The notes beneath the pieces are model-generated. The model was not told the origin of the DNA. It did no database searches and worked only from the letters and a program-made list of their open reading frames with translations. A program made the translations under genes and the position numbers. DNA of 64,000 nucleotides from Acidobacteria bacterium SCN 69-37 (GTDB lineage: Bacteria; Acidobacteriota; Vicinamibacteria; Vicinamibacterales; SCN-69-37), in NCBI GenBank assembly GCA_001724025.1, contig MEDJ01000002.1:1-64000 (forward strand), in the 5' to 3' direction. Each line of letters opens with the position of its first letter. Positions within the stretch are counted from its first letter, which is position 1. Below, piece by piece: positions 3,056-15,307 of the stretch.

Positions 3056-3505
3056 ATGGCGAAAAAATCGAATGAAACCGTCGTCGAGGAACTGTCCGTG
3101 CTGCTCGCCAGCACGTACACGCTGTACCTGAAGACGCAGAACTACCACTGGAACGTCACGGGCCCGATGTTCACGACGCTCCATACGCTGTTCGAGACGC
3201 AGTACACCGAGTTGGCCCTCGCCAACGACGAGATCGCCGAGCGCATCAGGGCCCTGGGCGCGTTTGCGCCCGGTAGCCTGGCCGAGTTCTCGAAGCTGTC
3301 CGTGGTGAAGGAAGCCAGGGGCCGGTCGTCGGCGAAGGAGATGATCCAGACGCTCGTCGCCGATCAGAAGGCCGTGGTGAAGGCCGCTCACCAGGTCATC
3401 GACGCGGCCGACAAGGTGGGCGATCAGGCCACCGCCGACCTGGGGACCCGGCGCGTCGACATCCACGAGAAGAACGCGTGGATGCTGCACAGCCATCTGG
3501 AGTAG
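3056..3505 (+). CDS. dps: Dps family DNA-binding ferritin-like protein
   Basis: Encodes a 149-residue Dps/mini-ferritin that oxidises Fe(II) with peroxide, stores the iron in a dodecameric shell and protects DNA. The ferroxidase signature is clear: NYHWNVTGPMF and, one turn later, ETQYTELALANDEIAERI, supplying the conserved His, Asp and Glu ligands. Length matches the family (150-170). The open frame extends upstream to 2990, but ATG 3056 has a GGAG eight bases ahead and begins with a lysine-rich MAKKSNE tail typical of DNA-binding Dps N-termini, so that start was chosen. A TATGCT -10-like hexamer lies at 3002-3007. It is a neighbour of the P1B-4 ATPase, so both could belong to iron or oxidative-stress defence. 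Confidence 0.93.
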   Translation: MAKKSNETVVEELSVLLASTYTLYLKTQNYHWNVTGPMFTTLHTLFETQYTELALANDEIAERIRALGAFAPGSLAEFSKLSVVKEARGRSSAKEMIQTLVADQKAVVKAAHQVIDAADKVGDQATADLGTRRVDIHEKNAWMLHSHLE

Positions 3506-3611: not shown

Positions 3612-4274
3612 TCAGCGCGGCGATCGCCGGACGCGCTTGGTCGGCGCGTCCGCATGGCGCCAGACCCGGAAGATCACCGTCGCCTCACCAAGTCCGATCG
3701 CGTCGCCATCGTCGAGCGCCGTCGGCCCGGCGATCGTCCGCCGATTCACGTCCGTCCCGTTCGTGCTGTCGAGATCCTCGATCACCGGCGCGTCGTCCAG
3801 ACCGGCGTCCGGCAATTGCAGGCGGGCGTGGCGACGCGACACGCCCGGCGCGTCGATCCAGACATCACAGGCTGGATCGCGGCCGATGACGCAGGTCGAT
3901 CGAACGAGCACGATCGTCCGTTCACCCCACACCAGCCAGTGACGCGGCCCGCCGCCCGGGCCCGCGCGCGGATCCAGATCGCGCGCATGGCCGTCGAAGG
4001 CATAGCCCACGCCGTGTGCCGTGCGCACGACGGTCGCGTCGCTCCCGAGCGCCGCACGGATCTCTGCGACGAGATTCCCGAGCGCCGCCGCCACGACGTG
4101 CGTGTCGGGCCACAGCTGCTGCCGCAGGGCCGTACGATCGACGACGGCGGGACGCGCCTCGACGAGCAGCACCAGCAGGTGGAATGCCTTCGGCGAGAGA
4201 TGAATCACCTCGCTGCCGCGCAGCAACTGGCGCGCGGCCCCGTCGAGGATGTGCGTGCCGAACGCGACCTTCAC
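3612..4274 (-). CDS. EmbR-like regulator: winged helix plus FHA domain
   Basis: A 220-residue cytoplasmic protein with two domains. Residues 1-95 form an OmpR/PhoB-type winged-helix DNA-binding domain (LSPKAFHLLVLLVE, RTALRQQLWPD, ending HGVGYAF). Residues about 115-205 form an FHA phosphothreonine-binding domain with the canonical GR, SRRH and STNGT triad (IGRDPACDV, VSRRHARL, LDSTNGTDVN). Mycobacterial EmbR has the same ends but a BTAD domain between them; here that middle domain is missing. It is divergently transcribed, 89 bp from the FhaA-like gene that opens the kinase/phosphatase cluster. It is therefore a good candidate for a transcription factor switched by phosphorylation from the neighbouring kinase. 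That link is inference. Confidence 0.85.
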   Translation of the reverse strand: MKVAFGTHILDGAARQLLRGSEVIHLSPKAFHLLVLLVEARPAVVDRTALRQQLWPDTHVVAAALGNLVAEIRAALGSDATVVRTAHGVGYAFDGHARDLDPRAGPGGGPRHWLVWGERTIVLVRSTCVIGRDPACDVWIDAPGVSRRHARLQLPDAGLDDAPVIEDLDSTNGTDVNRRTIAGPTALDDGDAIGLGEATVIFRVWRHADAPTKRVRRSPR

Positions 4275-4363
4275 CGCATCCCCGCGGTCGTGATGAAAAC
4301 CTTGAGAAATCGTTGCGCCTGCCTCGTCACCGTCTGAGAGATAGTAAGCGACCGGAGACCGTG

Positions 4364-5248
4364 ATGGCAGCCAGCTCCCATGACCGCGATTCCGCCGGCC
4401 CTCGTCGCCCGGCCGCCGATCTGATCACGGCGGTCATCGACAACATGCGCGAGAATCGCGAGGAACTGCGCTATTCCGTCGTCGTCCCGAGCCGCTACTC
4501 GGTCGTGTTGTCGCCCGCCGAGTTCGCGCGGCTCGAAGGGCTGGTGCCGCGGCTGCAGGCCGAGACCATCCGGGCGCTGACCGAGGAACTGGCGCGTATG
4601 AATCAGCTGTCGTGGATCGAGCGCCGTGTGGGCGCCTGGCGAGGCCGCACGCGCACGCCACTCGAGAACGCCGACACGGCGTGGCACGTCGAGTTCGTTC
4701 CCGACGTCAACGGCGATCTGGCGCACGAGGGCGACATCCTCGTGCACTCGGAACTCCGCCTGCCTGGCGAGCCGGCCCTCGGCGGGGGCGAGCGGACGCG
4801 GCGCATCAGCACCGTGCATGCGAGCGGAGCCACGCGGTCGATGCGGGTCAACGGCGAGTCCGCCGCGGTCGATCGTGGGGCCAGCACCGTCGCGATCCAT
4901 GCGCGACTGACGTACACCGACAGGACCGGCCCACACCAGTACGACATCGTCCGCGACTCGGCCACGATCGGCCGCGGCGGCACCGTTTATCCGGTCGACG
5001 TCCGGATCCACGCCTCCGAGGACGTCTCGCGCGAGCACGCCCGCATCCGTCGCGATCCGGTCACGGGTTGCTTCTTCCTGATCGATCTCAGCACGCTCGG
5101 GACCACGCTCAACGGCCGGCACGCGCCGCGCGGCTACGACGAAACCGATGGATCGAAGCGCGAGAACGGTGTCGAGTCCGAGTTGCCGCTGCGTGCGCGC
5201 ATCGGCCTGGCGGACGTCGTGTTCCTGGACTTCGAACGGATCGACTGA
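4364..5248 (+). CDS. FhaA-like protein (DUF3662-type N-terminus plus FHA)
   Basis: A 294-residue soluble protein. The N-terminal part (VPSRYSVVLSPAEFARLEGL, about residues 40-65) resembles the DUF3662 domain of mycobacterial FhaA. A C-terminal FHA domain (about 200-290) carries IGRGG, VSREHARI and STLGTTLNG. FhaA binds phosphorylated partners, including MviN, in mycobacterial wall synthesis; a similar adaptor role here is inference. ATG 4364 was chosen because CGGAGACC precedes it and upstream codons lack domain character. It is the first gene of a tight operon: the next start codon begins two bases after this stop. Confidence 0.85.
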   Translation: MAASSHDRDSAGPRRPAADLITAVIDNMRENREELRYSVVVPSRYSVVLSPAEFARLEGLVPRLQAETIRALTEELARMNQLSWIERRVGAWRGRTRTPLENADTAWHVEFVPDVNGDLAHEGDILVHSELRLPGEPALGGGERTRRISTVHASGATRSMRVNGESAAVDRGASTVAIHARLTYTDRTGPHQYDIVRDSATIGRGGTVYPVDVRIHASEDVSREHARIRRDPVTGCFFLIDLSTLGTTLNGRHAPRGYDETDGSKRENGVESELPLRARIGLADVVFLDFERID

Positions 5249-5346: not shown

Positions 5347-6996
5347 ATGGTGGCCGAACTCACCCGTCGCCTGGCATCGGGCGTCGCCACGGGCGATGTG
5401 GCGATCCGCGCGGCCGGGTTGACCGACGTGGGGCGCCAGCGTGACGTGAACGAAGATCGTCTGCACGTCGACATCGCGCGCGGCATCTTCATCGTCGTCG
5501 ATGGTGTGGGGGGCCAGGCAGCCGGCGGGCGTGCGGCCGACATCGCGCTGCGGATGCTGCGCGAGCGACTGGAACGGCAGACGGGAGCGGTGGTCGATCG
5601 CGTGCGCGAGGCGATCACGATTGCCAACAACGAGATCTTCCACCAGGCCCAGCAGCGGCCCGAGTGGCACGGCATGGCGTGCGTGCTGACGGTAGCCGTG
5701 ATCAACGAACGGCGACTCGTCATCGGGCACGTCGGCGATACGCGACTCTACGTGTTCCACGGGGGCCAGGCACGCAAGTTGACGCCGGATCACTCGCCCG
5801 TGGGCGAGCGCGAGGACGCGCGCGAACTGTCGGAGATCGAGGCGATGCGGCACCCGCGCCGCAACGAAGTGTTCCGCGACGTGGGCTCGACGGTCCATCA
5901 CCTGGCCGATCGCGAGTTCATTCATGTCGATGACGTGGCCTTTCCCGACGATGCGGCGCTGTTGATCTGCAGTGACGGGCTCACGGACCTCGTGCCGCTG
6001 GCAACGATCAGGCAGGCCGTGGAGACCTGCAGCGGCCGGCCCGAGGCGGTCGTGCGCACGCTCGTGCAGGCGGCGAACGATGCGGGCGGCAAGGACAACG
6101 TCACGGTCGTGTACGCGGAGGGCGTGCGGTTCGCGACGAGAGCCGCTGTCGATCCGGCTCGCGGTCCTGTGCCGGCGGTGCGGGATCGGCGATCGTCCAG
6201 CGGCGTCTGGAAGGGCTTTTTTGCGGGACTCCTGATCGCGGCGGGACTTGGCGGCTGGTGGGCCTGGCACGAGGGATTGATCGGACGCGACCTGGTGGTC
6301 GGCACGATCGCCCCGGCCCCGCAGGCCGGCGCCATCGTCGTGCGCGCGGGCGAGTCGATTGCCGAGGCGATTGCGCGCGCGGAGCCGGGCTTCTCGATCG
6401 TCGTGGAACCCGGCGAGTATCGCGAGCGTCTGACGCTCAGGGATCATGTGCGGGTCATCAGTCGCGTGCCGCGTGGTGTCACACTGCGGCGTCCATCCGA
6501 ATCCATTGCTGACGACGCCGTGGTGACGGCCGTGGGCGTGATGGGCGCCGAGCTGTCGGGCTTCCGCATCGTGGGCGACGATGCGGCGCCGCTCGACGTG
6601 GGCGTGCTTACGCGTGACGGCAGCACGCGGCTCGTCGATCTCGAGATCTCGGGAGCGCGCACCGCGGCCGTGGCGTTCGGGCCGGGAGACGACGTGCTGG
6701 TGGCGAGTGACATCCGCGACAACCCGGGCGCGGCGATCGTGGCGGCGCCCGGCGCATCGCCGCGCATCGCGCACAACCGGTTCGCCCGCAACGGCACGCT
6801 GGCGACCGCACCGTTCGCGTTCGAGCCCGGCGCCGTCCCGCAGATCAGCGGCAACGTGTTCCAGGGCATCCAGGCCCGCACATTGGCCGGACTCGGAGAC
6901 GAGACGATGCAGGCGCTGCCCGCCGACAACGTGTTCATCGAGCCGCGGCCGGCCGCGTCCAGCGCGCGGCCTTCACCCGCGCCCCGGAGCCGTTGA
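5347..6996 (+). CDS. PP2C-family Ser/Thr phosphatase with external beta-helix domain
   Basis: A 549-residue membrane phosphatase expected to reverse the kinase encoded next door. Residues 1-270 are a PPM/PP2C catalytic domain with the metal-binding motifs QRDVNEDR, VVDGVGGQ, GHVGDTRLY, CSDGLTD and GKDNVTVV. One membrane span follows at about 288-306 (FFAGLLIAAGLGGWWAWH). Residues about 325-535 are a non-cytoplasmic right-handed beta-helix-like region with repeated 'V-x-x-G-x-Y' and 'D-N-x-x-x-x-I' turns (pectate-lyase/NosD style). Mycobacterial PstP has only a short external tail, so this sensor-like domain is distinctive. The stop overlaps the upstream codons of the kinase gene, showing tight operon organisation. 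Confidence 0.9.
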   Translation: MVAELTRRLASGVATGDVAIRAAGLTDVGRQRDVNEDRLHVDIARGIFIVVDGVGGQAAGGRAADIALRMLRERLERQTGAVVDRVREAITIANNEIFHQAQQRPEWHGMACVLTVAVINERRLVIGHVGDTRLYVFHGGQARKLTPDHSPVGEREDARELSEIEAMRHPRRNEVFRDVGSTVHHLADREFIHVDDVAFPDDAALLICSDGLTDLVPLATIRQAVETCSGRPEAVVRTLVQAANDAGGKDNVTVVYAEGVRFATRAAVDPARGPVPAVRDRRSSSGVWKGFFAGLLIAAGLGGWWAWHEGLIGRDLVVGTIAPAPQAGAIVVRAGESIAEAIARAEPGFSIVVEPGEYRERLTLRDHVRVISRVPRGVTLRRPSESIADDAVVTAVGVMGAELSGFRIVGDDAAPLDVGVLTRDGSTRLVDLEISGARTAAVAFGPGDDVLVASDIRDNPGAAIVAAPGASPRIAHNRFARNGTLATAPFAFEPGAVPQISGNVFQGIQARTLAGLGDETMQALPADNVFIEPRPAASSARPSPAPRSR

Positions 6997-6998
6997 CG

Positions 6999-8981
6999 AT
7001 GGTGACGTTCGGTCCAGTGGGTCCGTACGACATCGTGCGCCAGATCGGTCGAGGCATGAGCCCCGTGTACCTGGCCACCGATCGCCGCAATGGGACGTCC
7101 GTCGCGTTGAAGGTCGTACCCGTCGGATCCGACGAGGACGCGCGCGAACTGCTCGAGGCCGAGCAGCAGGGCGCCGATCTGCAGCGGCGTTTCTCGGATC
7201 TCACGGAGTACGTCCCGCGCGTGTTCGAGGTCGGTCGCGACGCCGACGACTTCTACATCGCGATGGAATATGTCGACGGTGAGGATCTGTCGGTAATCCT
7301 CGCGCGCGGTCCGATCGCGCCGCCGCGCGCCGTGGCGATTGCGACAGAGCTCTGCCGGTTCCTCGAGGAAGTCGATCGCGTGGCGGGCGCGGAGGGCGAG
7401 TCGGCGCTGACGCTGCTGCACAACGACCTGAAGCCCGGCAACATCCGGATCGCGCCCGGCGATCACGTGAAGATTCTCGACTTCGGTGCGGCCAAGGTGC
7501 TGTCGCTCAGCCGGCGCGTGACGCGCAATGTCTTCGGCAGCATCCCGTATCTGTCGCCCGAGTGCATCGAGACGGGCAAGCGCGACAGGCACACGGATGC
7601 GTGGGCGCTCGGCGTGCTGCTCTACGAGATGGTGGCCGGCCGGACGCCGTTCCAGGCCGACACGACCATCAACCTCGAGCGCCGGATTCGCTCGCGTCGT
7701 CCGCCCGAGCCGGCTCCGGGGATTGGCGGCGACCTGCGGGCCGTCATCGAGAAGCTGCTCGCGCCGCACCCGGAGGAGCGATACGCGGACCCGGCCGCGA
7801 TCCGCGCCGATCTCGAGCGTCTGGCCGCTGGCGAGCCGACGATGGCCGCCGGGGAGTCGATCGAGCGGCCGACACGCCGCGTCGACGAGCCGGTGACGCG
7901 GCGGACGCGTGAACCGCTCGATCCGATCGAGCGCGATGACGAAGCGCCGACGCGCCCGGTGGCGCGACTGGCGAGCCTCGAGGACGTCACGCCTGTCGTC
8001 GATCCGATCGGTGTGGACGTGCCCGTCGATGCGTCGCTCGTCGCCTCGTCGAGACCGGCGGGTCGCGCGCGTCGCCGCCTGGTGCTGGTGCTCGTGGTGC
8101 TGATCGTCGCTCTGGTGGGGAACGAGATCCTGGTGGCTCGTCGTGCCGGACGCCTGGCCGCGACCGTGCCGCTGCAGGAATTCAGCGACGTCAACGGCTC
8201 GTGGCAGGCACACGCGCAACTGGCCGGACGCAGCTATCTCGGTTTCGCCACGTACGACCTCCGCCGCGCGCTCGTGCGACAGTCGCAGGTGCTGGCCGAT
8301 CGCGTCATCCAGAACTATCGGAGTCCCGCGCCGACGGTGCGCGAGACGCAGTGGGAATCAGCCGCTGGCGTGCTGCGGCACGCGCTCACGGCGTCGCCGG
8401 GGGACACCGGCATGCGCGCGTCGCTCCGGTACGTCGAAGGCCATCTCCACCGCATCGACGGCGAAGCCGCGAAGTCGCGCCGGCAGGCGGCGCGGGCACA
8501 GCGTGAACTGGCCGAGGCCGTCAGTGCGTTCCGCGAGGCGGCCTCGCTCCGACCCGACTGGCCCGATCCGTATCTGGGCCTGGCGCGGACGTTCATCTAC
8601 GGGATCGAGGACATCGATCGCGGCGCCGACGCGATGGCGCAGGCACAGAAGCTCGGCTACACGATCGGCGCGCGCGAGACCGCGCAACTCGGCGATGGCT
8701 ATCGCACGCGCGGCGAGACGCTGGTGCGCGCCGCCGAATCGCTGGCCGGCCTGCCGCAGGAAACGGAGTCGCTGACGCGTGCGGCCGACGCGTTCAGGAA
8801 AGCGCTGGATCTGTACTCGACCATCAGCGGCTTCGGTGACGTGCCGGCCCGCATCCGGGCGACGCAGAACCGGCTGGCGGTCATCGAACAGCGGCTGGGG
8901 CGGGCGTCGACCGACGGCGCGGCGAAGTCGCGGAACGGTGCGATCGATCGGCTGATCGACGCGATCTCGGGAGCGTTCTGA
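6999..8981 (+). CDS. Transmembrane Ser/Thr protein kinase with helical external domain
   Basis: A 660-residue PknB-type kinase. The N-lobe has IGRGMSPVYLA and the ATP-anchoring lysine K38 (VALK). The catalytic loop is HNDLKPGN with D143. The usual HRD arginine is Asn, so this is a non-RD kinase, which suggests activation without classic activation-loop phosphorylation of an RD pocket. DFG is at 161-163 and the SPE of the APE motif follows. A long Arg/Glu/Pro-rich juxtamembrane linker leads to one span at about 360-380. The external 280 residues are alpha-helical with repeat character (TPR-like). The frame is open to TTG 6993, but ATG 6999 is the likelier start. Its stop overlaps the next gene by one base (TGATG). 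Confidence 0.93.
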   Translation: MVTFGPVGPYDIVRQIGRGMSPVYLATDRRNGTSVALKVVPVGSDEDARELLEAEQQGADLQRRFSDLTEYVPRVFEVGRDADDFYIAMEYVDGEDLSVILARGPIAPPRAVAIATELCRFLEEVDRVAGAEGESALTLLHNDLKPGNIRIAPGDHVKILDFGAAKVLSLSRRVTRNVFGSIPYLSPECIETGKRDRHTDAWALGVLLYEMVAGRTPFQADTTINLERRIRSRRPPEPAPGIGGDLRAVIEKLLAPHPEERYADPAAIRADLERLAAGEPTMAAGESIERPTRRVDEPVTRRTREPLDPIERDDEAPTRPVARLASLEDVTPVVDPIGVDVPVDASLVASSRPAGRARRRLVLVLVVLIVALVGNEILVARRAGRLAATVPLQEFSDVNGSWQAHAQLAGRSYLGFATYDLRRALVRQSQVLADRVIQNYRSPAPTVRETQWESAAGVLRHALTASPGDTGMRASLRYVEGHLHRIDGEAAKSRRQAARAQRELAEAVSAFREAASLRPDWPDPYLGLARTFIYGIEDIDRGADAMAQAQKLGYTIGARETAQLGDGYRTRGETLVRAAESLAGLPQETESLTRAADAFRKALDLYSTISGFGDVPARIRATQNRLAVIEQRLGRASTDGAAKSRNGAIDRLIDAISGAF

Positions 8982-11900
8982 TGGCCGTCAGCTATACCTC
9001 TGCCCGCCAGCGCGATCGCCGGCGCACACGGGCGGCTGCGCTCCGGCTGCGGCCCGACAGGCTGCTGGTGGGCGTGGCACTCGTGTCGATCCTGCTGATC
9101 GTCACCGCGTACGTCGGCCGGATGCGCACCTTCGACGCGGGCGAGGCCGCACGTTCGACGTCGGCCATCTCTCTCGGCACTGTCGCCGACGCGGCCGCGC
9201 TCGAGCCAGCGATGAGCCTGGCCTTCGCGCAGCCGGCGGATCGCCGGCTCGTCGCCCGCGAGCTGTACGCCGCGCTGCAGGCGGCGGCGGGGACGGCGCC
9301 GGCGAACGTCGGCGCGCTGTCGGCGTTGACGGTGCGGCTCGACGCGCTCGATCGCCTGCCGCCGGGATCGGCGTTCACCGCCCGCCGCGTCGCCGCCGAA
9401 CGCGACGGGCGCACGGTCGTGCCGCTCTTCACGTCAGCCGATCTCGCGGCCATCAAGCCGGGCCTCGTCGTCCGGACGACCGATCAGTACCGACTGGTTG
9501 TCGTCATGTGCGCGCTGGCCCTCGGGCTCGCGTTCGGGGCCGTGCCACTCGTCTGGCGCGCGCGTGGCGTGGCGGGCGATCGCGTGCTGCTCGCGGCGGC
9601 CTGGCTGCTGGTCTCGCTCGGCTTCGTCGTGATGCTCAGCCGGCCGGATCCACTGCGCGACACGCTGCTCGTCGTCCGCTACACGCAGGGGGCCGTGCTC
9701 GGCATCGTGCTGTTCGCGGTGGTGTCGCTCGTCGACGTGCGACGGCTTGCGCACTTCGCGTTCAGTTATCTGCCGCTGGCCGCGGCGCTGCTGCTGGCCG
9801 TGATCCTGATGATCTTCGGTCGCGGACCGGGCACGAGCGATGCCCGCGTGAACCTGGGACCGATGCAGCCGATGGAGCCGATCCGCCTGTTGCTCGCGTG
9901 CTTCCTTGCCGGCTATTTCGCGCGCCGCTGGGAAGTGCTGCGCCAGGTGTCGGGTGCCACGTTCCGTCGCCATCGGCTGCCGGCGTGGATGGACCTGCCG
10001 CGGCCGGATCTGGTGCTGCCGGTCCTGCTCGCGATGGCCGTGGCGCTGATGCTGTTCTTCGTGCTGAAGGATCTCGGGCCGGCGTTGCTGCTCTCGCTCG
10101 TGTTCCTCGCGCTGTTTGCCGTTGCGCGGGCACGCGTGGCCATGGCGCTGGTAGGACTGGCGGTGCTCGTCAGTGGGTTCTATGTCGGGTACGCGCTCGG
10201 AATCTCGAGCACATTGTCGGCGCGCGTGGCGATGTGGTGGTCGCCCTGGGAAAACGTTGCGCGCGGCGGCGATCAGGTAGCGCAGGCGCTCTGGGGCTTT
10301 GCGAGCGGTGCGTTGTCGGGAACCGGGCTCGGTCTTGGCGCCACGCGGTACCTGCCGGCCGGGCACACGGATCTCGTGCTGGCTGCGATCGGCGAGGAAC
10401 TCGGCGCGATGGGAATGCTCACCGTCGCCGTCGCGTTCGTCGTCATCGCATGGCGTGGTCTCGCGATCGCGCGGCGGGCATCGACCGACTACGGCCTGTT
10501 CCTCGCGCTCGCGATGACCCTGACCCTCGTCGTGCCCGTGCTCGTGATGTCGGCCGGCCTGCTCGGGCTGATCCCGCTCACGGGCGTGGTCACGCCGTTC
10601 CTGAGCTACGGCGGATCGGCGATGGCCGTCAACTTCCTCGCACTGGGCCTGGTGGTGGCCTGTCGTGGCGGCCGCCAGGCATCGGTCGAGCCGACGGGCG
10701 AGGCGTTTCACGTGCCGATGCGCTGGCTGGCGCGGACGATGGCCGCGGCGGCGATCGGACTCGTCATCGTGTGGGGACGGACGCAGATCGTGTCGGCCGA
10801 CGCGCTGCTCGTCCGGCCGCAGCTCGGACGACAGGCCGATGGCGGCGTGCGCTTCCAGTACAACCCGCGCGTCCTCGACATGGCGCGCCTGCTGCCGCGC
10901 GGGACGATATTCGATCGCGCAGGCATCCCGCTCGCCACCGACGATGTGGCGGTGGCGCACACGGAAGCCGACGCGTACCGGCGACTGGGTATCGACGTCG
11001 ATCGCCTGTGTCCGCCAGCCGGCGATGCGCGGTGTTATCCGTTTGGCGGCGAGATGTTCCACCTGCTGGGCGATGCCCGAACCCGGGCGAATTGGGCAGC
11101 GTCGAACAGCTCCTATGTCGAGCGCGATGCCGAGGCGCGGCTGCGTGGGTTCGACGATCGGGCCGTGATCGTGCGGACAGGTCAGGAGGGCGAGTCCGGC
11201 GTGGCACTGCGGCGTGATTACGCGCCGCTGGTGCCGCTCGTCCGTCATCGCTGGGAGCCCGAGCATCCGGCCGTGCGCGCGGTCTTCGAGCGGCCGCGCG
11301 ACGTGCGGCTGACGATCGACGCGCGCCTGCAGCACCAGGTGTCCGTCATTCTCGCCAGAGCCGTGACGTCGGCGCGCGTCACGCGCGGTGCCGCCGTCGT
11401 CGTCGACGCCGACAGTGGGGAAGTGCTCGCCAGCGTGAGCTACCCGTGGCCGTCGACCGCGGCGGCAGATGGGCTGTCGTCCGATGCGTCGCTCGATCGC
11501 GCGCGATACGGGCTCTATCCGCCCGGGTCGACGTTCAAGGTCGTGACGGCGGCGGCCGCGCTGCGTGCGGATCCGGCACTGGCCGGTCTGTCCTTCGTGT
11601 GCGAGCGCCTGCCCGACAACCGCGCGGGCGCGCGCATCGCCGGGTATGGCCGGCCGGTCCGCGACGACGTCCGCGATCGGCATGCGCACGGATCGATCGC
11701 CATGCGCGATGGGTTCGTGCAGTCGTGCAACGCGTACTTCGCGCAGCTGGCCGTGCGGATCGGTGCCGATCGTCTGGCTGAAACGTCGGCCCTGGCCGGC
11801 ATCGCGCTGTCGTCGTCTTCCGATGCCGGTGCGCTGCGTGACACGCTGCCGTACGCCGGGTTCGGCCAGGGGCAGGTAGTGGCGTCGCCGCTGCGCCTGG

Positions 11901-12283
11901 CGCGGGTGGTGGCCGCTGTCGCGTCGGATGGCCTGATTCGCGAGGCCCCGATCGTGCGCGAGTCGGGCCAGACCGTGGCGACGTCGTTCCTGCCGCCCGG
12001 CGAGGCGCACGTGATTGCCGGGTTCATGCGGGGCGCGGTGACGGACGGCACCGGCCGTCTGCTCGCCTCGCACCCGTCGAGGATTGCCGGCAAGACCGGT
12101 ACGGCCGAACTGGAGGGCGCGCCGTCACACGCCTGGTTCGTCGGCTTCGCGCCGTACGGCGAAGCGACCCGTCGGATTGCATTTGCCGTGCTGCTCGAAC
12201 ACGGCGGCTATGGGGGCGCGTCGGCGGCAGCGGCGTCGGGACAGATTGTCACGGCCGCGGCAGCGCTCGGCCTGGTGCGGTGA
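8981..12283 (+). CDS. SEDS (FtsW/RodA) glycosyltransferase fused to class B penicillin-binding protein
   Basis: A single 1100-residue protein that joins the two halves of a peptidoglycan synthase normally encoded as partners. The first part has one span (about 28-46), an extracytoplasmic segment of about 120 residues, and a multi-span FtsW/RodA domain. That domain includes LPAGHTDLVLAAIGEELG, with the SEDS catalytic aspartate equivalent at D464, and the VTPFLSYGGSAM motif. A further span links to a class B PBP ectodomain: pedestal motif LPRGTIFDRAGIPLA, then transpeptidase motifs S850-TFK (SxxK), S915-CN (SxN) and K1038-TG. All key residues are present, so both activities are plausible. It overlaps the kinase stop by one base and the following FHA gene by four. 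Mycobacterial rodA and pbpA occupy the matching position as two genes. Confidence 0.93.
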   Translation: MAVSYTSARQRDRRRTRAAALRLRPDRLLVGVALVSILLIVTAYVGRMRTFDAGEAARSTSAISLGTVADAAALEPAMSLAFAQPADRRLVARELYAALQAAAGTAPANVGALSALTVRLDALDRLPPGSAFTARRVAAERDGRTVVPLFTSADLAAIKPGLVVRTTDQYRLVVVMCALALGLAFGAVPLVWRARGVAGDRVLLAAAWLLVSLGFVVMLSRPDPLRDTLLVVRYTQGAVLGIVLFAVVSLVDVRRLAHFAFSYLPLAAALLLAVILMIFGRGPGTSDARVNLGPMQPMEPIRLLLACFLAGYFARRWEVLRQVSGATFRRHRLPAWMDLPRPDLVLPVLLAMAVALMLFFVLKDLGPALLLSLVFLALFAVARARVAMALVGLAVLVSGFYVGYALGISSTLSARVAMWWSPWENVARGGDQVAQALWGFASGALSGTGLGLGATRYLPAGHTDLVLAAIGEELGAMGMLTVAVAFVVIAWRGLAIARRASTDYGLFLALAMTLTLVVPVLVMSAGLLGLIPLTGVVTPFLSYGGSAMAVNFLALGLVVACRGGRQASVEPTGEAFHVPMRWLARTMAAAAIGLVIVWGRTQIVSADALLVRPQLGRQADGGVRFQYNPRVLDMARLLPRGTIFDRAGIPLATDDVAVAHTEADAYRRLGIDVDRLCPPAGDARCYPFGGEMFHLLGDARTRANWAASNSSYVERDAEARLRGFDDRAVIVRTGQEGESGVALRRDYAPLVPLVRHRWEPEHPAVRAVFERPRDVRLTIDARLQHQVSVILARAVTSARVTRGAAVVVDADSGEVLASVSYPWPSTAAADGLSSDASLDRARYGLYPPGSTFKVVTAAAALRADPALAGLSFVCERLPDNRAGARIAGYGRPVRDDVRDRHAHGSIAMRDGFVQSCNAYFAQLAVRIGADRLAETSALAGIALSSSSDAGALRDTLPYAGFGQGQVVASPLRLARVVAAVASDGLIREAPIVRESGQTVATSFLPPGEAHVIAGFMRGAVTDGTGRLLASHPSRIAGKTGTAELEGAPSHAWFVGFAPYGEATRRIAFAVLLEHGGYGGASAAAASGQIVTAAAALGLVR

Positions 12284-13110
12284 TCGTCATGCTGAAGAAG
12301 ATCAACGACGTTTTCGAGAAGGCGCGTCGGCTCGAAGCCACGATTGCGGAACGGGTCGAAGGGGCGGCGACGCGCGTGACCGGCGGGCCCGGCGCGCGCG
12401 AACCGCTGGACACCGCGCACGCGATCGTCGACCTCGTCGCCCGCGAGATCCAGGCAACCGGCCGCGGCCATCGCGGCTTTCCCTTCAACCAGGTGCGCAT
12501 CACGCTGCTCGCGCCCACGCCGCGTGCGAAGGCGCGACTGCAGGCCGTCATCGACGGTCCGGATCCGCTGCGCGATCGAATCACCTCGCGGCTGGCGACA
12601 GCCGGCTGTGACGTCGACGGACTGATGGTGACGGTGGCGTACGCGACGAAAGCGAAGGCGGACTGGGTCCAGCCGGACTTCGATGTGGAGTGCCTGCGCG
12701 TCGACGCGCGTGAGGTGCCGCTGGTCACGTCACCCGGTCACCGGCTGGGCCTTCGTGTGCTGGCGGGAGAGACCGTCAGTGCGTCGTACGATCTCGATGC
12801 GGACACGGTGACGATTGGGCGCGGCACCGAGATCGCCGATGATCGCGGCCGCCTGATTCGCGTGAACCTGATTGCGTTTACCGACGGCGCCGGCGACATC
12901 AACGCGACGGTTTCGCGCCTGCACGCGCACGTCACGCGCGAAGTCGGCGGCACCTGGCGGATCTTCGATGACGGCAGTGCGCAGGGCACGATGGTGGTGC
13001 GGCAGGGCCGCGGGCACGTGGTCTCGCAGTGGGGCCGGGGCATCGTGCTGCGGTCCGGCGACGAGATCGTGCTCGGCCGCGCGCGCCTGTCAGTGACCGC
13101 CATCGCGTGA
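12280..13110 (+). CDS. FHA-domain protein, last gene of the kinase/cell-wall cluster
   Basis: A 276-residue soluble protein. GTG 12280 overlaps the stop of the SEDS-PBP gene (GTGA); an ATG follows at 12289. The N-terminus is an amphipathic helix (MLKKINDVFEKARRLEATIA) followed by a FhaA-like alpha/beta domain (FNQVRITLLAPTPRAKARLQ). The C-terminal FHA domain has IGRGTEIADD, TVSRLHAHV and an AQGT in place of the usual NGT, so its binding loop is slightly altered. The cluster thus holds two FhaA-type adaptors flanking phosphatase, kinase and synthase. The likely role is docking to phosphothreonines made by the kinase; this is inferred from family and context. Confidence 0.82.
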   Translation: MIVMLKKINDVFEKARRLEATIAERVEGAATRVTGGPGAREPLDTAHAIVDLVAREIQATGRGHRGFPFNQVRITLLAPTPRAKARLQAVIDGPDPLRDRITSRLATAGCDVDGLMVTVAYATKAKADWVQPDFDVECLRVDAREVPLVTSPGHRLGLRVLAGETVSASYDLDADTVTIGRGTEIADDRGRLIRVNLIAFTDGAGDINATVSRLHAHVTREVGGTWRIFDDGSAQGTMVVRQGRGHVVSQWGRGIVLRSGDEIVLGRARLSVTAIA

Positions 13111-13129: not shown

Positions 13130-13561
13130 TCAGGCCGGCGCAGAACCCGATCGATCGGGCCGAGGCGCACCCTTGCGATAGAACGCGGACTGGTACTGCT
13201 CGACCAGCCGCTTGATCGTCACGGCGTCGCGCTTCGTGTGGCCGTGGCACTCGATCGGATTCTGTCCGCCGGTGCTCTCGATATACACATCCGAGTAGAG
13301 GATGTTCGTGTCGATGCGGATCGAGGCCACGTGCGAGATGTGGATGGACTCCTCGTACTTCCCGATCCACTGCGGCCGGAAGTGCGTGATGCTCGACTCG
13401 CCGACGATGACCTGCGCCGGGAAGATCCGGTTCCCGCGACTCACGCGGCTGGCCCGGAACACGTGCGCGCCGGGCAGCCGTCGTCCCTTCCTCAGCACGT
13501 ACGCAATCAGCAGCAGGACGAGGCCGGCTGCCGCGAGCGCCGTGACGAGGGCCGGAGCCAT
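13130..13561 (-). CDS. Membrane-anchored PH-like domain protein
   Basis: Reading from ATG 13561 gives 143 residues. One N-terminal transmembrane helix ([18 protein letters not shown]) is followed by a basic cytoplasmic stretch and a beta-rich domain with the pattern [25 protein letters not shown], ending in an amphipathic helix. This resembles bacterial PH-like folds (bPH) but is not a confident match. The frame remains open upstream to 13669, but a TACAAT -10-like hexamer on the minus strand at 13575-13570 places transcription start about at the ATG. The last bases lie 19 bp from the convergent FHA gene. Function is unknown. Confidence 0.65.
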
Positions 13562-13647
13562 GGCGCGCGATTGTAGCAGGGGCGCGACCGGCCGACGACG
13601 ATGGACGTTCCCGCGCGGCGGTGGAATCTGGCACAGTAGGGGGCTGT

Positions 13648-15237
13648 ATGTCGAAGAGTTCGCTGACACCGGACGCCCCCGCCGTCGAGCGCCTGCGCCA
13701 CGCCATCGACGTGCTCGAGGCGGTCGTGGCCGATCGTGGCCTGATGGCCGAGCTGTCCCCCGACGACCGCACGCGCCTGATTCAGGCCGCCGGGGCCGTG
13801 CACACGCCCGACGTGCAGGCGCGGCGTCGCCTGGTGAAACGCCTGGCGAAGGAGCGGCGCGCCGAGGTCGTCAGGCGCGACGACGAGCTGCTGCACGAAA
13901 CCGGGATACGCGAGCTGCGACGCAAGCCCGTGTTCACGACGCCGAACGTGTTCGCGCCGCCCGGGTTTACGCCCGACGACCGGGCGACGGATCCGGATGA
14001 CGAGGACGAGGTGCCGCCGGCGGCGCCGGGCCCGCGTCAGGCGGCCGAGCCGCGTGGCTGTTATACGTGCAAGCAGCGGTACGAGCAGCTGCACCACTTC
14101 TACGATCAGTTGTGTCCCGCGTGTGCGGCGCTCAACTACCGGAAGCGGACCGAGCTGGCCGACCTGCGCGGTCGCGTGGCGCTCTTGACGGGCGGTCGCG
14201 TGAAGATCGGGTACCAGGCCGGCCTGAAGCTGCTGCGCTGTGGTGCGCACCTGATCGTGACCACGCGGTTCCCGCGCGATTCGGCGAAGCGGTATGCGGC
14301 CGAGCCCGATTTCGCCGACTGGGCACACAGGCTGGAGATCTTCGGCCTCGACCTGCGGCACACACCGAGCGTGGAGGCGTTCTGTGCGCACCTGATCGCC
14401 ACGCGCGACAGGCTCGACTTCATCGTCAACAACGCGTGCCAGACCGTGCGGCGCCCGCCCGACTTCTACGCCCACATGATGGCTGGCGAGACCGCGGCAG
14501 TCGACGGGATGCCGGCGCACGAGCGGGCGTTGATTGGCGCGTACGAAGGGCTGCGCGGCTATCACCTGCTGCCCGAGTCTGCCGGCGAGACGACGCTGGC
14601 CACAGCCGCGCCGTTGTCGGAGCTGGCGGGCCTGACGCACGCGGCCGAGCTCTCGCAGGTCCGGCTGCTGCCCGAGGAGCTCCGGGCGCAGCGTGACCTG
14701 TTTCCTGAAGGGCGGCTCGATCAGGATCTGCAGCAGATCGACCTGCGCGGCCGCAACTCGTGGCGGCTGCTGCTGGCCGAGGTGTCGACGGTCGAGCTGC
14801 TCGAGGTGCAGCTCGTCAATGCCGTGGCCCCCTTCGTGCTGAACGCGCGACTCAAGCCGTTGATGCTGAAGACGAGCGACCGCGACAAGCACATCGTCAA
14901 CGTCTCCGCGGTGGAGGGGCAGTTTTACCGGCGGTTCAAGACGACCCGGCACCCGCACACGAACATGGCCAAGGCCGCGTTGAACATGATGACGCGCACG
15001 GCGGCCACCGACTACTACAATGACGGCATCCACATGAACAGCGTGGACACCGGCTGGGTGACCGATGAGGATCCGGTGGAGATTGCCGCGCGCAAGACCG
15101 CCGAGCACCGGTTCCACCCGCCGCTCGACATCGTCGACGGTGCGGCGCGGATCGTCGATCCGATCATCGACGGGTTCAACACCGGCGTGCACGTGTGGGG
15201 ACAGTTCCTGAAGGACTATCGGAAGGCCGATTGGTAG
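13648..15237 (+). CDS. SDR-fold oxidoreductase with inserted zinc ribbon
   Basis: A 529-residue protein. Residues 1-130 are a charged helical region; then comes a four-cysteine zinc ribbon, C138-x2-C141 and C156-x2-C159. A Rossmann SDR domain follows with TGGRVKIG (the TGxxxGIG cofactor motif, about 179-187) and NNACQT (NNAG equivalent). A central insertion of over 100 residues separates this from the C-terminal half. The active-site Ser is in NVSAVEGQF, but the position of the catalytic Tyr is Thr438 (T-N-M-A-K442), so the classical YxxxK pair is incomplete. ATG 13648 follows AGGGGG. Either the chemistry is changed or it binds rather than reduces its ligand; the substrate is unknown. Confidence 0.8.
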
Positions 15238-15307
15238 ACGACCGCGGGCCGCGGGCTGCGGACGACCGGCGGCGGACAGCGGGCGGCGGGACATGTGAGA
15301 CTCGACC

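Follow-up and report, generated by a model that had tools for sequence, protein, structure and literature searches.

A SEDS glycosyltransferase and a class B penicillin-binding protein in one reading frame of an acidobacterial kinase/phosphatase/FHA operon

How polymerization by SEDS glycosyltransferases is coupled to crosslinking by penicillin-binding proteins (PBPs), and how kinases gate the two, is an open question that has so far been approached with engineered fusions. A 64,000-nucleotide stretch of Acidobacteria bacterium SCN 69-37 (contig MEDJ01000002.1, positions 1 to 64,000; hereafter the window) raises it in a native form, as a single reading frame that encodes both enzymes. Which pair does this protein represent, what is its task beside FtsW and RodA, and is the frame real?

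Two wall enzymes in one chain

The frame runs without interruption from an ATG at 8981 to a TGA at 12283, 1100 codons with no internal stop (Table 1). Pfam assigns residues 205-560 to FTSW_RODA_SPOVE (PF01098; E 2.5e-51, 175 bits against a cut-off of 26.4) and residues 803-1089 to Transpeptidase (PF00905; E 1.5e-31, 110 bits); the search returned these two domains only, and no GT51 domain. The first half is a SEDS protein by its profile, the ten-helix transmembrane (TM) core of the model and the Asp in its HTD motif, and the second a class B PBP by its SxxK, SxN and KTG motifs and by the single TM helix and pedestal ahead of the transpeptidase. The initial annotation had placed both proteins in one frame with D464, S850, S915 and K1038 intact, which the reading frame, the Pfam matches and the motifs confirm; the 1:1 stoichiometry it deduced follows from the fusion. 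The structure prediction that it had proposed as a check, carried out with AlphaFold2 on a 56-row alignment of fused and unpaired relatives, yielded a confident full-length model in one piece (mean pLDDT 90.8, pTM 0.85).

Table 1. Features of the fusion gene and its neighbors in the window
Feature	Positions	Strand	Basis
Divergent regulator, winged-helix (Trans_reg_C) and FHA	3612..4274	-	Pfam; also at several other cassettes
FhaA-like protein, weak FhaA_N and FHA	4364..5248	+	Pfam on ORF 4016-5248; start picked by reading
PP2C phosphatase, then hydrophobic stretch and repeat-like C-terminal part	5347..6996	+	PF00481; Stp1-type profile below cut-off; sequence
Transmembrane Ser/Thr kinase, TPR-like C-terminal part	6993..8981	+	PF00069; ALK, HND, DFG motifs; TM 359-377
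SEDS glycosyltransferase-class B PBP fusion, 1100 aa	8981..12283	+	Single ORF, Pfam, alignment, model
Residues 25-58 (helix 25-59 in model): first extra N-terminal helix, TM, extending beyond the membrane outside	9053..9154	+	Model, hydropathy
Residues 59-165: extracytoplasmic domain, mostly helical; clade-conserved L65, R88, V110, R165; variable insert ~117-146	9155..9475	+	Alignment, hydropathy, model
Residues 167-195: second extra N-terminal TM helix	9479..9565	+	Hydropathy, model
Residues 200-560: SEDS core, ten TM	9578..10660	+	PF01098, model
D464, SEDS catalytic Asp in GHTD	10370..10372	+	Motif; invariant in 26 fusions
Residues 561-571: cytoplasmic linker, 11 residues	10661..10693	+	Between model helices 545-560 and 572-604
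Residues 572-604: PBP TM helix	10694..10792	+	Hydropathy, model
Residues 612-770: PBP pedestal	10814..11290	+	bPBP structure alignment from ~633; conserved RGTI-DR motif
Residues 771-1097: transpeptidase domain	11291..12271	+	PF00905; VIA-align to FtsI/PBP3
S850-T-F-K853 (STFK), acyl-enzyme motif	11528..11539	+	Motif reading
S915-C-N917 (SCN)	11723..11731	+	Motif reading
K1038-T-G (KTG)	12092..12100	+	Motif reading
FHA protein	12280..13110	+	PF00498

The fold of residues 633-1100 matches class B PBPs, with Z scores of 43-46 against FtsI/PBP3 (VIA-align), and the PBP half also matches PBPA of Mycobacterium tuberculosis. Unlike two fusions from elsewhere (L035, L036), the window protein showed no match to the PBP_dimer_2 profile (PbpA dimerization) at E 0.01, and we therefore call its PBP half PbpA-like rather than PbpA. 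Identification of the protein as a RodA/PbpA-type pair, two wall enzymes in one chain, is supported at the level of sequence. From the known topology of the two families, the SEDS C-terminus and the PBP N-terminus should both lie on the cytoplasmic side, and adjacent genes could therefore be fused without a change in topology. The N-terminal tail of the fusions is conserved and rich in Thr and Ser (roughly M-x-V-T-x-[ST]-[TS]-A-x-x-R); that it serves as a phosphorylation site is only a guess.

The initial annotation had left the segment around residues 47-165 unexplained. In Actinomycetota and Clostridia, RodA proteins whose genes adjoin pbpA have two additional TM helices at the N-terminus, with a short loop between them; these helices are absent from stand-alone acidobacterial FtsW. 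The stretch aligned to residues 47-165 comprises approximately 83-146 residues in the acidobacterial main clade and approximately 45-53 in a distant type. Since pbpA-linked RodA proteins share the two helices, and given the length and conservation of the stretch in the main clade, the alignments identify the segment as the enlarged loop of a hairpin typical of such RodA proteins. A ComEA-like helix-hairpin-helix domain is a structural lead for this segment, which we do not put forward as a claim. Residues 59-165 superpose on 2duy (VIA-align Z 6.3, rmsd 2.3, 62 of the 65 residues of 2duy), but Foldseek with residues 47-165 returned no match at E 0.001, Pfam gave the domain no support, and the profile-profile comparison of the whole segment (1.6%) fell inside the shuffle range; a post-hoc excision beat the shuffles, and other excisions reached equal scores with different alignments.

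Fusions without transpeptidase residues

Two sister fusions, with open frames of more than 1070 codons, have kept the SEDS Asp and lost the transpeptidase residues. In one (L007:2-3220, equivalent to L029) S850 is replaced by A, K853 by D and KTG by VTG; in the other (L117:1471-4776, equivalent to L028:5572-8877) SxxK has become SxxG, SxN has become ACD and KTG has become MTG. Since these two members are devoid of the transpeptidase residues, crosslinking by the fusion is predicted to be dispensable in some lineages. They amount to natural separation-of-function variants. One might go further and propose that in the fusions generally the working enzyme is the SEDS half, with the PBP half serving mainly as a built-in activator or anchor and crosslinking performed elsewhere. 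The two members, open frames and SEDS Asp included, are what such a role would predict, and activation of RodA through the helix and pedestal of PBP2 is already known (PMC6207328, PMC10449877). Arguing against this possibility, the three motifs are intact in all other full-length main-clade fusions aligned, including the window protein, and dN/dS of the transpeptidase lies at approximately 0.29-0.45 in both dead-site members, above the 0.13-0.25 of the active pairs used for comparison. We consider it improbable. Because dN/dS is also raised in the SEDS half of the dead-site members, the whole gene may be decaying in them.

The operon and an additional synthase

The reading with two working enzymes is retained, and the neighboring genes suggest how they might be controlled. 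A divergent winged-helix/FHA regulator is followed by the genes for the FhaA-like protein (its N-terminus is matched weakly by Pfam), the PP2C phosphatase, the transmembrane kinase, the fusion and an FHA protein. At TGATG the stop codon of the kinase gene overlaps the start codon of the fusion gene, and at GTGA the stop codon of the fusion gene overlaps the start of the downstream FHA gene. The order FhaA-PP2C-kinase-fusion-FHA is kept in acidobacterial main-clade loci with sufficient flank, apart from the rearranged L152; in the distant type (L150, L151) only PP2C lies directly upstream of the fusion. FHA, PP2C and Ser/Thr kinase genes thus adjoin the SEDS-PBP gene, as in the actinobacterial type of operon. 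Because the mycobacterial operon fhaA-fhaB-pstP-rodA-pbpA-pknA-pknB (PMC11898655) contains FhaA, FhaB, a phosphatase, RodA, PbpA and two kinases, the fusion operon is its counterpart.

The two systems share the kinds of genes and their neighborhood, the resemblance of the PBP half to PBPA and the 12-TM layout of RodA. They differ in that the window encodes one polypeptide instead of two, with an extracytoplasmic loop of approximately 120 residues in the N-terminal hairpin, in that the kinase gene lies ahead of the fusion and its product has a TPR-like part in place of PASTA repeats, and in that the fusion coexists with a complete FtsW/RodA set. Pfam detected no PASTA repeats in the window kinase and gave weak TPR matches instead. 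The TPR-like part of this kinase (6993-8981) sits where PknB has PASTA, and its HRD motif is replaced by HND. The C-terminal part of the PP2C protein (5347-6996) reads like parallel beta-helix repeats and is possibly an extracytoplasmic sensor. A small one-TM protein, PH-like by eye, is encoded on the minus strand (13130-13669), where it separates the cassette from the conserved gene that follows.

In total, the genome from which the window derives encodes three SEDS proteins and six transpeptidases. FtsW lies in the mur cluster with a PASTA-bearing FtsI, and RodA lies with PBP2 adjoining MreC. The SEDS half of the fusion falls well below the FtsW and RodA equivalog cut-offs and forms a clade apart from acidobacterial FtsW and RodA. 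All 18 carriers examined (the 17 others and the window's genome) encode two or more stand-alone SEDS proteins in addition to the fusion. The latter is therefore an extra synthase, in the window's genome a third SEDS protein next to canonical FtsW and RodA, and it is probably neither the housekeeping elongation nor the division synthase. The RodA/PbpA-type halves and the operon resemble the actinobacterial elongation system and might suggest that the fusion is the main elongation synthase in place of RodA/PBP2. This is very unlikely, given that the same genome encodes a separate RodA as well as a PBP2 adjoining MreC, and that the cassette is lacking in most relatives. A search of 13 other members of the window's family did not find the fusion.

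In a genome of the same genus (G001) the flanks of the cassette (window positions 3078-3504 and 13687-15248) are 814 bases apart, compared with 10.2 kb in the window, and the whole cassette is absent from the matching site. It follows that the cassette was gained or lost as a unit. An unrelated, HD-hydrolase-like reading frame takes its place there (L163:7101-7915). Families f6 and f15 each occur at two places in the fusion tree, with the f1 copy of the window among them, which hints at transfer.

The most plausible model, which we regard as likely, is that of a single-chain RodA/PbpA-type synthase, an accessory third pair that is switched by a kinase and PP2C through FHA readers. The 12-TM RodA and the PbpA-like PBP would have been fused across the rodA-pbpA gene junction. 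D464 would be the site at which the SEDS half polymerizes lipid II. From the cytoplasmic C-terminus of this half the chain would continue straight into the PBP TM helix and from there to the pedestal and transpeptidase outside the membrane, where the tethered PBP would crosslink the new strand at S850. The transmembrane Ser/Thr kinase and PP2C of the operon would switch the fusion via the two FHA proteins as phospho-threonine readers, and the synthase would act alongside FtsW/FtsI and RodA/PBP2. The sequence itself establishes the fusion with its catalytic residues, the operon, the clade and the extra copy, whereas the two enzymatic activities, the coupling between them, control by phosphorylation and a role as accessory synthase are inferred. 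According to a bolder and rather doubtful version, the whole six-gene cassette was gained or lost as a unit and provides a transferable, kinase-gated single-chain synthase dedicated to a special wall and not to growth, with the PBP of one sub-lineage reduced to a pure activator without crosslinking.

Distribution and origins of the fusions

Among 193 Vicinamibacteria genomes the fusion was found in 32, which represent 20 of 104 genera, and among 396 evenly sampled genomes of the phylum in 12, other acidobacterial classes included; results from the public genome collection agreed. End-to-end alignment of 26 full-length fusions, 42-56% identical to the window protein, reveals invariant residues in both halves. 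In the fragmented genomes G138 and G074 some matches consist of halves on separate contigs. The closed genome of Luteitalea sp. TBR-22 (L148; 6,468,984 bp), whose assembly combines Illumina, MinION and Sanger data (PMC8852301), carries the same in-frame fusion. Joining of two genes through a frameshift or an assembly error, for which no supporting point was found, is rejected as having practically no likelihood, because the same in-frame fusion occurs in all these genomes, the hybrid-assembled Luteitalea among them. The search across genomes and the long-read check that the initial annotation had envisaged thus both favored its reading, in that acidobacterial homologs are fused rather than split and the frame is intact in a genome that includes MinION reads. 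With a conserved native fusion in a cultured genus, Luteitalea, located in a kinase/phosphatase/FHA operon and present in addition to FtsW and RodA, the coupling becomes testable in a native single chain.

The acidobacterial fusions group together as a single clade of the SEDS tree (support 98, or 99 with the distant type included), separate from the actinobacterial fusions found in this analysis. Fusions of Actinomycetota (L035 and the Thermoleophilia L059), Clostridia and an unclassified bacterium are interspersed among split rodA-pbpA pairs. At least six changes between fused and split states are required, a count that is valid for this sample alone, as the tree was computed by a quick method from pattern-based sampling. 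A single origin of all SEDS-PBP fusions was rejected (AU p = 1e-7), and the tree indicates that such fusions arose repeatedly. The branch of the Armatimonadota fusion L042 is too long for placement.

Class A PBPs likewise unite a glycosyltransferase and a transpeptidase in a single chain, but their polymerase is GT51, unrelated to SEDS. Engineered E. coli RodA-PBP2 linker fusions are active in lipid II polymerization and in Bocillin binding, and they bring back the rod shape to a large extent (PMC6207328, PMC10449877). They resemble the window protein in the order SEDS-PBP and the short linker, and show that such a fusion can function; they differ in being artificial, in the ten TM helices of E. 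coli RodA and in the location of the pair outside a kinase operon. A natural SEDS-PBP fusion in a single ORF is mentioned in PMC10449877, which cites the genome of Rhodococcus sp. RHA1 (its ref. 18); that fusion is alike in uniting SEDS and PBP in one ORF. The full-text searches, which covered few subscription papers, turned up nothing that describes the acidobacterial clade or the fusion operon. The fusion is accordingly of a known kind, and the acidobacterial clade, its operon and the two members with a dead transpeptidase seem to be undescribed.

Further SEDS-PBP fusions were encountered in Clostridia, Armatimonadota, Thermoleophilia and an unclassified bacterium (L034, L036, L038, L039, L042, L043, L059). 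An independent rodA-pbpA fusion is located in an actinomycete metagenome-assembled genome (L035:5806-8550), inside a classical operon with the order kinase, FhaA_N/FHA, FHA, PP2C, the fusion (SEDS, PBP_dimer_2, Transpeptidase) and a PASTA kinase.
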